Source: Clavaria fumosa
Lineage: Eukaryota > Basidiomycota > Agaricomycetes > Agaricales > Clavariaceae
Direction: 5' to 3'
Assembly (NCBI GenBank): GCA_951802425.1
Contig: OX637794.1
Span: 2,914,001-2,978,000 of the forward strand
DNA length: 64,000 nt
Every line of letters starts with the position of its first letter. Position 1 is the first letter of the stretch. The position numbers were made by a program, and so were the translations under genes. Under the pieces are notes generated by a model. The model had not been told where the DNA came from. It saw nothing but the letters and a program-made list of their open reading frames with translations, and made no database searches. This document shows positions 6,320 through 63,569 of this stretch, one piece after another.

Positions 6320-6621
6320 GAGGGGGGTGATGTTAGGATCACTTACATAAGCCATCCCAAAGAGGAGTTATGGAGAAACTGAGGAGGGTTGTTAGAAGGT
6401 CACATGACCTGTGGCTGGGTCGGATTATGTAATCACATAAGATCACATGACCTAGGGCCTGGGCGCATCACGTGATCCGAGGGTCCGAGCGTGGGAAAGT
6501 CGGCAAGTGCCAGGGCTCTTGCTATAAGTACTTCGTTGTTTCCTTTTTTGTACTCTTTTCCCCTTATCTTAGTATTGTCATCATGACCTTACACTTAAGT
6601 TGTGTGAGACCCAGTCTGATA
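6318..6621 (+). repeat. Polypurine tract and 3' LTR of the chromovirus, right end truncated
   Basis: AAGAGGGGGGTGA (6318-6330) is a polypurine tract immediately before TGTTAGGATC at 6331, the same start as the 5' copy. Similarity to the 5' LTR ends at 6621, whereas the 5' copy continues for roughly 80 bp more. The sequence then changes to an unrelated gag fragment, so the end was lost by deletion or by a later insertion. Confidence 0.75.
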
Positions 6622-10689: not shown

Positions 10690-11740
10690 AAAGTTGTAGT
10701 CTGTGTGAATCTCAAGGGCTGGCTGATGGAATCATGCTGCCACTGTGTGAGGGACTTGATGACTGCAAGCATCCCCAAATTGTAAATATCCAGCTTCTTG
10801 GACATGCAGTCTATTTCCCTGCTGCTGGTATAAAATTCCTGCTATCATGGCCTCACTGGCATCCATCTCTATCTTCCAGTGCATTCCATCTACCAGAATT
10901 GCAACTTGGGTCAAGTTCTCAAGGGCATACAATATTTGTTCTGCTGGAACAAAGTTTCAGGTCCTCATCCCTTGCTGCTTGGTCAATGGAGAGGAGCTGT
11001 GTTACATTCAGGCAAGGTGTATCAGCAAAACAGCTCAACTAAGTGTAGGTATAGACAGGTATGGACTAATATGTAACCCCAAGTTGTCTTGGGGTCCACA
11101 CTTGTCTATACCCACAATGAGCCAAGCTGTTTTGCTGATGTGGAGGCAAGAACATTAAGTGGCAAGTGGTGGGCAATTGCTTGTTTAACCACAGAGCTAC
11201 CATACTATGTACACACCTACTTATATGCATAGAGTTATATGCATCTGCTTGGTTGTCCACAGTTGGGCAGCTAGCTGTATTTCTTGGGGGCTGCTGCCTG
11301 CAGAATGCTATTCCCATCAGTGGCACACTACAAAAGGGGCTGGTAGTCATCTCCTCATCATGACATGGTGATGGTGGTACCTGCAGGGATGCAATAGAGT
11401 TTGCCAATGTTCTAACTGGCTCTGGTGTCAGTTTTCATATGGTCTGGTCATTTCCTTCCTGGTCCCATGAATGCATAGGGTTTCTGTGTAAGAAATCCTT
11501 ACAATCTGCCCACCTCCTCCAAGGGCTCATCCTCAAGACATGAACACTTTATTGCCTCCTCCACATGTTTTAAGTTGTTCTCCAGTTCCCAAGTGTCTTC
11601 TTCTGGAGTATCCCTTCCAATGCACTAGAAACTTCAGATAAGCTACAGCCACCATATCTACTGACCAGAGTGGTGATCTGTGAGATATCTGATTGCCTTG
11701 CCTTGGATGTTGAAAAGGTTACACCTACCCAAGTAGCTTA
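10690..11740 (-). pseudogene. Minus-strand chromovirus debris (RNase H and chromodomain pieces)
   Basis: On the minus strand, 10932-10732 encodes an RNase H start (KIEMDASEAMIAGILYQQQ), preceded by frame-shifted reverse transcriptase-like sequence. Farther up, 11690-11500 reads in shifting frames as a chromodomain (VHWKGYS...EDTWELENNLKHVEEAIK), followed by a purine-rich tract and TGTAAGGATTTC at about 11499, which may be the edge of an LTR. The order (chromodomain upstream of RNase H on the minus strand) is scrambled compared with an intact element, so at least two fragments or a rearrangement are involved. A hairpin MITE (11021-11139) sits inside. Confidence 0.55.
11021..11139. mobile_element. 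Hairpin MITE, imperfect palindrome
   Basis: ATCAGCAAAACAGCT at 11021 is matched in reverse complement by AGCTGTTTTGCTGAT ending at 11139. The pairing continues inward through GGTATAGACA / TGTCTATACC and CCCCAAG / CTTGGGG, so nearly all 119 bp fold into one stem. There is no coding capacity. The termini match those of the element at 61645-61773. No target duplication could be fixed because the flanking bases extend the palindrome. Confidence 0.7.
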
Positions 11741-29767: not shown

Positions 29768-29976
29768 TAGTGTTGCCACGGTTCGGTTAATTTCGGTTAA
29801 CCGAACTCAAACCGATGCTTTTAAAACTTCAATAAATTCTGTAAAATTATGGAAATATTTCTGGAGATTTCTACACATATTTTAAACCTACTCTAATTTT
29901 TCTGCGATTTTACAGATTTTATTTGAGATCGGTTTGAGTTCGGTTAACCGAAATTAACCGAACCGTGGCAACACTA
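29768..29976. mobile_element. hAT-type MITE with 49-bp perfect TIRs and 8-bp target duplication
   Basis: The 209-bp element begins TAGTGTTGCCACGG and ends with its reverse complement; the first and last 49 bp pair perfectly. It is flanked on both sides by GACCGTGA (29760-29767 and 29977-29984), an 8-bp target duplication. TIRs starting TAGTG with an 8-bp duplication are the mark of the hAT superfamily. The AT-rich middle has no coding capacity. It inserted about 50 bp upstream of the AP endonuclease start. Confidence 0.93.
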
Positions 29977-61644: not shown

Positions 61645-61773
61645 TCATCAGCAAAACAGATTGGACAGGGGCTAGGTATGTACTGGTATATACTTCTCTA
61701 TACTCCTATAGGTGTTATAAACCACTTAAAACCAGTACATACCTAGCCCCTGTCCAATCTGTTTTGCTGATGA
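61645..61773. mobile_element. Hairpin MITE with perfect 43-bp stem
   Basis: TCATCAGCAAAACAGATTGG opens a 43-bp arm whose exact reverse complement ends at 61773; the loop is 43 bp. There is no coding capacity. The termini (ATCAGCAAAACAG) match the hairpin at 11021-11139 while the interiors differ, so both are probably mobilised by the same unseen transposase. A target duplication could not be decided. Confidence 0.8.
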
Positions 61774-61970
61774 ATATGGGCAGAGCAGAGCAAGAAGGAG
61801 AGCAAGTAAGCTGAGCAAGATCCACAAGAGAAGAAATGAAGAAGTGGAGGGATCCACACAGTGTTGTTGATCATCACTCCCACTTGGCAGGACACCTTGC
61901 AGTTGAGAGAGCATGTCCTGGTAATGTTGCTTAGGTAAACAAACCATGCCACAGTACATAATGACACATA

Positions 61971-63567
61971 CAGTGACTCACAAAACTGTTTGAATGTTTT
62001 GCACTTTTGAAATGATTCACTTATACCTTTCCAGGTAAAATAGCTAAAGTTCTGAGGATATTTTTGAGGATAGCCATGCCTCTTGGCTACAACTTTACTC
62101 TATATTGTAAAGCACAATTCCCATTTTTGGTAATGTTATGACATCATTTTCTTTGTCATGTCATTCAAACAGTTTTGTTGCTGACAATTTTATCAGTCAA
62201 ATGTGTAAGTATTAGTGTTCAATATGGCCTCTTTTTGCCTTCAGCACACCCCCAATCCTTCTAGGCATGCTTTCAATCAATCCCTGACAAATAGAAGCAG
62301 GTATCTTGTTCCACTCCTCTTCCACCCTTCCCACAACTGTAACACTCCTCCTGGTGCCTTTCCATAGTCTCCAAGCCTCCTCCTAAGATGACTCCACAGA
62401 TGCTCAATGGGATTGAGGTCTGCAGATTGAGTAGGTTATATGAGGGCCTTAAAATCATGGTCCTTTAGCCAATCTTTGGCCTGGTGGCTCTGGTGCTTGA
62501 GCTCCCCATCATGTTGCAATTTGTTTGATCAGCTCTGGCAAGGCAGAAAATATTGTGCAGATTGCCAGGACCCTTAGTAGTATTACTAACCAGCCTATTT
62601 CTGCACACACTGTTAGAAGGTGTCTAAGGACTGTAAGTCCAAAGGCTGTAACTAAGAAGAAATTGCCCTTACTTAGTAGTAGACATAAGAAGGAGGGGAT
62701 GGACTTTGCTATGGCACATAAAGATTGGACTGTAGAGGACTGGAAGAGGGTTGTCTGGTCAGATGAGACTAAGATCAATAGGCTGGGATCCAATGGGAAG
62801 AAATGGGTGAGGCAGAAGCAGGGTGAAAATATGGTGGTGACAGGTTGGTGGAGGGAACAAGAACATTTGGAGGTGGTTCTGTGATAGTATGGGGATGTAT
62901 GATATTGGAGGGGGTGGGATATGCCTGCAAGATTGATGGGAGGATGGATAAGCACCTTTACACTGCCAAACTTTAGGCCAGCCTCCAATAGTATGACAAG
63001 ATCCCTGAAGACATCATATTGCAACATGATGGGGACCTCAAGCACCAGAGCCACCAGGCCAAAGATTGGCTAAAGGACCATGATTTTAAGGCCCTCATAT
63101 AACCTACTCAATCTGCAGACCTCAATCCCATTGAGCATCTGTGGAGTCATCTTAGGAGGAGGCTTGGAGACTATGAAAAGGCACCAGGAGGAGTGTTACA
63201 GTTGTGGGAAGGGTGGAAGAGGAGTGGAACAAGATACCTGCTTCTATTTGTCAGGGATTGATTGAAAGCATGCCTAGAAGGATTGGGGGTGTGCTGAAGG
63301 CAAAAAGAGGCCATATTGAACACCAATACTTACACATTTGACTGATAAAATTGTCAGCAACAAAACTGTTTGAATGACATGACAAAGAAAATGATGTCAT
63401 AACATTACCAAAAATGGGAATTGTGCTTTACAATATAGAGCAAAGTTGTAGCCAAGAGGCATGGCTATCCTCACAAATATCCTCAGAACTTTAGCTATTT
63501 TACCTGGAAAGGTATAAGTGAATCATTTCAAAAGTGCAAAACATTCAAACAGTTTTGTGAGTCACTG
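61971..63567 (+). mobile_element. Tc1/mariner element converted into a 550-bp-arm palindrome
   Basis: The element starts CAGTGACTCACAAAACTG and ends with its reverse complement; TA flanks both sides (61969-61970 and 63568-63569), the Tc1/mariner target duplication. The first 550 bp (61971-62520) and last 550 bp (63018-63567) are reverse complements with 5 mismatches counted by eye. The right arm carries the natural 3' half of a Tc1 transposase; the left arm is an inverted copy of it in place of the original 5' end. The 497-bp middle holds the remaining transposase sequence. Within each arm a second TIR-like copy (CATTCAAACAGTTTTG) lies about 195 bp from the end. Confidence 0.93.
62525..63265 (+). 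pseudogene. Tc1-type DDE transposase, truncated and frameshifted
   Basis: From 62525 one frame gives SAHTVRRCLRT (second helix-turn-helix), ...KDWTVEDWKRVVWSDETKINRLGSNGKKWVR (first catalytic Asp, about 62740-62810). After TGA at 62882-62884 and a frame change, GSVIVWGCM, IILQHDGDLKHQSHQAKDWL (second Asp, about 63015-63070) and, past a stop, ADLNPIEHLWSHLRRRLGDY (Glu, about 63118-63175) follow. Spacing between the last two catalytic residues is 34, as in Tc1 (DD34E). The N-terminal DNA-binding part is missing because the inverted arm replaced it. No functional enzyme can be made from this copy. Confidence 0.85.
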
Positions 63568-63569
63568 TA

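Follow-up and report, generated by a model that had tools for sequence, protein, structure and literature searches.

How does a transposon come to carry the same half of its gene twice, in mirror image, and can such a structure move and persist? The question is raised by a Tc1/mariner element in Clavaria fumosa, found in a 64,000-nucleotide stretch of contig OX637794.1 (the window). The element ends in TACAGTGACTC...GAGTCACTGTA and its parts are listed in the table below. An inverted-repeat search and alignment gave two arms of 555 nt each, identical at 549 of 555 positions and differing at 6, that lie 491 nt apart. Each arm of this copy combines a 218-bp TIR with the 3' part of a transposase gene of Tc1 type. 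The arms make up 1110 of the 1601 bp, and inverted repeats of such length recall foldback-like elements. Chance is excluded as their source, since the next longest inverted repeats in the window (45 nt or longer, within 3 kb) have arms of only 58 and 49 nt, and since the genome holds 21 further full-length copies. An earlier note on this DNA had described near-perfect inverted arms of about 550 bp with 99% identity, which stands; its spacer of 497 bp has to be corrected to 491 bp, and its limits, 61971-63567, omit both TA dinucleotides. The spacer has a match to HTH_Tnp_Tc3_2 (PF01498), with a frameshift further on, and in our reading starts at the acceptor of an intron in the parent element described below.

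Table. Parts of the palindromic element, in window positions; "parent" refers to the ordinary element L031.
Feature	Position	Strand	Remarks
Whole palindromic Tc1/mariner element	61969..63569	+	TA to TA, 1601 bp
Left arm, inverted copy of the element's 3' part (parent 1657-1111)	61969..62523	- for C-terminal transposase part	
Spacer, middle of the transposase gene (parent about 605-1110)	62524..63014	+	491 bp
Right arm, the element's 3' part (parent 1111-1657): interrupted DDE coding sequence and 3' TIR	63015..63569	+	
Left 218-bp TIR	61969..62186	+	two opposed copies of CAAAACTGTTTGAATG (element positions 13, 194)
Right 218-bp TIR	63352..63569	-	same two opposed CAAAACTGTTTGAATG copies (element positions 1393, 1574)
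Palindrome birth junction, parent about 604	62518..62531	+	

From what was the palindrome made? An ordinary element of 1657 bp with 218-bp TIRs, L031, represents the parent form; we read its gene as two exons parted by a short intron, the second exon having a single in-frame stop. By alignment, the window element is the reverse complement of L031 1111-1657 joined to L031 604-1657, at 87-89% identity, so that the original 5' end has indeed been replaced by the inverted 3' half, as the earlier note had supposed. The palindrome has thereby lost the first exon and start codon of L031, together with its TATATA motifs and 5' TIR. The 218-bp TIR is shared with this relative at 84-86% identity in the four palindrome copies tested. 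Only two ordinary members of the palindrome's own family came to light, L031 and the truncated L042.

All 22 copies of the palindrome, referred to here as family 1, have the junction at an identical position, at the acceptor end of the L031 intron. The sequence ATGCTTGAT stands at the junction in 18 of them, with an ATG common to both sides; the window copy has a changed base there. Relative to L031, every copy also has the same three deletions, of 1 bp at parent position 919, 12 bp at 1053 and 1 bp at 1306. The common junction and deletions indicate a single non-coding master that was amplified in trans, and on them a repeated origin of family 1 was rejected. Mobility in trans had been suggested in the earlier note, and the presence of the three deletions of the old gene in all 22 dispersed copies bears this out.

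Has the palindrome moved as a unit? The search covered 48.8 Mb in 17 contigs, and the copy counts are lower bounds, the best 40 of 81 candidates having been scored. At least 22 full-length or nearly full-length copies were found at 93-100% identity, the window copy included, together with partial copies; L030-L046 were dropped as partial before counting. Both TA ends, as expected of a TA target-site duplication, are kept in 21 of the 22, L011 being without its left end. When 300-bp flanks were compared all against all, five partial similarities appeared and no pair of copies matched on both sides. Near-identical pairs, with 1, 1, 2 and 4 differences, lie at different places. When the flanks of L024 were joined over a single TA, at least 40 repeat sites (40 of 1,390 candidates scored) matched nearly the whole query at 91-95%, and one further match, at 77%, brings the matches to 41. 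The only one of the 40 read at sequence level, window 6364-6578, is an unbroken single-TA empty site for L024. TA-ended copies with different flanks, near-identical dispersed pairs and single-TA empty sites for L024 together indicate movement of the palindrome as a unit. The earlier note's proposal of insertion as a unit at TA is thus upheld, and its alternative of a genome with only this one copy falls, 21 copies with other flanks existing besides that in the window. Family 1 is very probably a non-autonomous Tc1/mariner family that was born once as a palindrome, inserted as a unit and has arms alike beyond descent. Compared with MITEs, the palindromes are non-coding and derived, yet they measure 1.6 kb and number some tens of copies.

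The empty site at window 6364-6578 itself belongs to a repeat that recurs many times in the genome, a first look having given 1,390 candidates, and the left flank of L024 resembles, in our reading, a retroelement integrase. Two loci, L035 and L037, are shorter palindromes whose spacer has seemingly been deleted, with arms of 588/595 and about 547/446 bp, respectively.

Are the two arms alike only because they share an origin? Given the one junction and the one set of deletions in all copies, the divergence of the two arms dates from the palindrome's birth and is older than that of the copies; if arms never exchanged sequence, those of one copy should be no closer to each other than left arms, or right arms, are between copies. 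Over the 22 copies, left and right arms differ by a mean of 0.9% within a copy (0.78% without the inner edge), against 5.0% for left arms and 5.1% for right arms between copies, with the spacer at 4.6%. When arm partners were permuted, none of 20,000 permutations reached the observed value, the lowest being 3.2%. The greater closeness of own arms, a foldback-like trait, holds on average but not in every copy: 13 of the 22 left arms have their own right arm as nearest, or joint nearest, match, and the other 9 stand nearer to an arm in a related copy. In the arm tree, a copy's own two arms are sisters in 10 of 22 cases, five with starred support. The arms are non-identical in 20 copies, and L018 and L019 have four identical arms. 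Homogenisation is not obligatory, since L022 and L023 have 8 unhomogenised arm differences in common and L024-L027 share 2 or 3.

Some copies may record exchange between arms and a turning of the spacer. At arm sites 58 and 71, respectively, L024 and L025 have C/A and A/G in left/right order, L026 and L027 have A/C and G/A, and L028 and L029 have A/A and G/G; L013 and L015 have C/C and A/A. A spacer flip and an arm conversion are both probable in the history of the L024-L029 subfamily, in an order of events that we infer. Parallel decay of CpG was considered as the main cause of the likeness of arms and was rejected: a minority base alike in both arms lies outside CpG context at 307 of 326 copy-sites, as do 102 of the 111 copy-sites at which the arms differ. 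This tally counts copies and not events, and takes context from the present consensus, by which old CpGs may be missed.

A second palindrome family was found in a separate Tc1 family. Its 690-bp arms are mirrored 5' halves, and a 220-bp TIR-like stretch lies in its centre. There are at least 10 full-length copies, of which 8 were analysed (L061, L063-L066 and L078-L080, leaving out the rearranged L062 and two further full-length copies), and all 8 have both TA ends. Arms differ by 0.67% within a copy, against 4.4% and 4.1% between copies, and the spacer by 4.2%. In L063, the one copy examined for this, TATATAAG and an ATG are present in each arm, pointing inward. A normal relative of family 2, L077, is about 78% alike. 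L061 (with L081 and L082; C1 about 802992-807032) is centred in a larger perfect palindrome, its flanks being inverted copies over 500 plus 721 bp with zero mismatches, either through a young duplication or through an assembly fold-back.

Ordinary elements provide a comparison. In the six sisters L055-L060, an element's own 5' and 3' TIRs are 10-13% apart (22-28 of 216 positions), against 5.5% for 5' TIRs and 4.0% for 3' TIRs between copies. In this comparison, homogenisation goes with the palindrome form. Single ordinary elements with closer TIRs are L031 (4.8%, 10/209) and L077 (3.2%, 7/220), values that stand without a between-copy comparison and leave room for TIR homogenisation or youth in some ordinary elements. 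The census of sisters is a lower bound, the best 119 of 222 candidates having been scored.

Could the palindrome be an error of assembly, or does it survive because it encodes something useful? Perfect palindromes are a known problem for assembly, and one copy of family 2, L061, does sit within an additional perfect flanking palindrome. A fold-back chimera, however, would have to account for 22 loci with different flanks, a constant spacer, empty sites and, in 20 copies, arms that are not identical; it is exceedingly improbable. On the separate loci, flanks and empty sites, both a lone copy and an assembly artefact were rejected. A useful protein, for example a shortened transposase with a repressor or helper function, might be read from the dN/dS ratio of 0.81 among the palindromes (10 representatives of 22) and of 0.68 against L031 (spacer 0.54, arm 0.99), a comparison that takes in the history of the parent itself. 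Five of the six ordinary sisters, however, also give 0.68; the N-terminal exon is missing; and two of the shared deletions, of 1 bp each, break the frame in all 22 copies, 20 of which have stops in the aligned frame. Constraint on the coding sequence would thus be weak at most and partly inherited from the ordinary-element past. A protein function of this kind is very improbable, and the shared frame-breaking deletions and the stops led us to reject a coding role of the palindrome.

Which protein, then, could mobilise the palindromes? Tc1 relatives of the kind that the earlier note had pointed to are present in the genome: besides L031 with its in-frame stop there is L060, an ordinary element of 1619 bp whose open 338-aa frame matches HTH_Tnp_Tc3_2 (PF01498) and DDE_3 (PF13358). 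The HTH and DDE parts of a Tc1 transposase are thus found through the window spacer (PF01498) and L060, the gene being broken in the palindrome itself. The 22-bp family end recurs on L055-L060 with 0-1 mismatches per end; on L060 one end is exact and the other has 1 mismatch. A protein search with L060 returned 7,148 relatives, the best among the matches listed having 81% identity. L060 is a possible helper, but at only about 72% likeness to L031 over the aligned part it is no more than a candidate for the mobilising transposase.

The anatomy of family 1 suggests how it may have been born. A gap left by excision would have been refilled from both sides; the left side may have copied the 3' end rather than the 5' end for about 550 bp, a wrong choice made possible by the likeness of the 218-bp TIRs, and the two strands would then have been joined at the ATG microhomology. 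Aborted or template-switched gap repair is a standard explanation for defective cut-and-paste copies in the available text of PMC4168063. With two good TIRs and no usable gene, the product could be mobilised by a related Tc1 transposase, and repair templated by a TIR or arm, or crossover and conversion, would copy one arm onto the other and sometimes flip the spacer. Any effect on RNA silencing would be a by-product. Gap-repair birth, trans-mobilisation and upkeep by conversion are all inferred, the origin from anatomy alone. A swap of TIRs during gap repair would explain both the two 3' ends of family 1 and the two 5' ends of family 2. The same outer ends, two 3' TIRs in one family and two 5' TIRs in the other, would also result if adjacent inverted elements had been trimmed by deletion and mobilised together through their outer TIRs; trimmed inverted neighbours would give a similar anatomy, and family 2 retains a third, internal TIR-like stretch. 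Such a composite origin, however, requires an inverted neighbour insertion plus trimming in each case, and in family 1 the halves meet directly within the element, no foreign sequence lying between them. We regard it as unlikely, though worth keeping in view; for family 2, trimmed inverted neighbours explain the structure about as well as gap repair does.

Parts of this picture are known from other systems. Mu killer, of the maize Mutator/MuDR system, is internally deleted and partly duplicated, has both TIRs from the same end, and contains incomplete transposase copies that end in an inverted duplication (PMC3440606, as far as the accessible text goes). Its plan is repeated here, by family 2 with the 5' (promoter) end and by family 1 with the 3' end; both families have an inverted duplication of the transposase gene and both TIRs from one end. 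Mu killer, however, is a single locus of another superfamily for which silencing has been shown, whereas here two multi-copy Tc1 families with arm homogenisation are known from sequence alone. Galileo, a Foldback-like element of the P superfamily in Drosophila, has long TIRs like the palindromes. According to the part of PMC2775673 consulted, TIRs within a copy of GalileoN-1 and GalileoN-2 differ by 0.0018 and 0.0071, against 0.067-0.069 between the two copies, and GalileoN-4 and -5, at inversion breakpoints, are described without this pattern. Galileo differs in its superfamily; the palindromes have a TA target, their arms are a duplicated coding half and their parent is still present. LIR-type Bari elements, which are Tc1-like, have a similar basic size, TIRs of about 250 bp and a TA target, with identical TIRs in some (PMC4877112, in the available text); unlike the palindrome arms, these TIRs do not contain half of the transposase gene. 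A counterpart to the spacer flip is the flip of the interior of bacterial insertion sequences by recombination between their inverted ends; the TIR-TIR inversions in the available text of PMC3004938 concern Wolbachia insertion sequences and not palindromised elements.

In the literature searched, which comprised titles and the starts of abstracts and had most subscription journals outside it, no palindromic Tc1 families like families 1 and 2 were named. The combination of the Mu killer plan, Galileo-like likeness of arms and a TIR-TIR flip in two Tc1 families with ordinary relatives present may be new, its parts being known. With the parent form, its palindromic product and the dispersed copies all present in a single genome, the change of an ordinary cut-and-paste element into one of foldback type can be followed. 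The mirror arms, moreover, evolve together, in contrast to the TIRs of six ordinary sisters. Both points make the origin and upkeep of foldbacks testable.

Do the palindromes seed RNA silencing, as the earlier note had thought possible? Their transcripts would fold into dsRNA of roughly 550 bp, which Dicer would cut into siRNAs that repress Tc1 families, and the structure would be kept for this purpose. The genome has domain matches to Piwi at four loci, to RdRP at five and to the Dicer dimerisation domain at two, some of them with stops that introns or decay may explain. A long hairpin is predicted for RNA of the inner 1,001 nt (-652 kcal/mol, a value without shuffle control), Mu killer has the same plan (PMC3440606, available text), and hairpins of Tc1-Mariner TIRs have been proposed to feed siRNAs (available text of PMC4188875). 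The examined Tc1 elements are nearly free of CpG, as if once heavily methylated. Yet a motif check, which is not a promoter assay, found TATATA in none of the 22 copies, and the two in L031 lie in the lost 5' part. Target matching cuts both ways. With 2 mismatches allowed, 251 of the 309 21-mers of the 3' coding part of L031 match an arm, but the exact 21-mers in common with the arms of all 22 copies are 87 of 309 in this part, 0 of 872 between the 5' TIR and the 3' coding part, and 3-6 of 1,584-1,599 in each of the six ordinary sisters (53-60 with 2 mismatches). The palindromes were, furthermore, amplified, hence unsilenced at that time, and conversion without selection explains the identity of the arms. 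A structure maintained as a silencing seed is improbable; arm-derived siRNAs, if made, would at present find their targets mainly in L031 and in the palindromes themselves.

Family 2 would be the better silencing candidate. Silencing-linked antisense transcripts of Mu killer begin within the element and not in its flank (available text of PMC3440606), and starts of this kind favour family 2 as the first candidate. With promoter-like starts in family 2 and none in family 1, the two are natural candidates with built-in controls for asking whether inverted transposon copies can start silencing. A wider proposal, that TIR-swapping gap repair recurrently makes self-homogenising palindromes, and that these act as mobile dsRNA seeds bringing about silencing and CpG methylation within the superfamily to which they belong, is in our estimate quite improbable. 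If it were true, the Mu killer plan would be something that transposon families regularly pass through, and not an accident of maize.

CpG observed/expected is 0-0.10 in the examined Tc1 elements (window 61969-63569, L009-L029, L031, L055-L060, L063-L066 and L077-L080) against 0.85 in the whole window, and the window copy has zero CpG in its 1601 bp. The near-absence of CpG suggests either long CpG methylation followed by deamination or selection for CpG-free movers.

The window has other features of note. Two short hairpin elements, at 61645-61773 and 11021-11139, have arms of 58 and 46 nt and the same ends, ATCAGCAAAACAG...CTGTTTTGCTGAT, and are possibly members of a small palindromic MITE family. 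A perfect 49-nt inverted repeat, 111 nt apart, lies at 29768-29976. On the minus strand, an open frame at 60108-60566 matches Ras-family small GTPases (PF00071), and its 5' side faces the palindromic element about 1.4 kb away.
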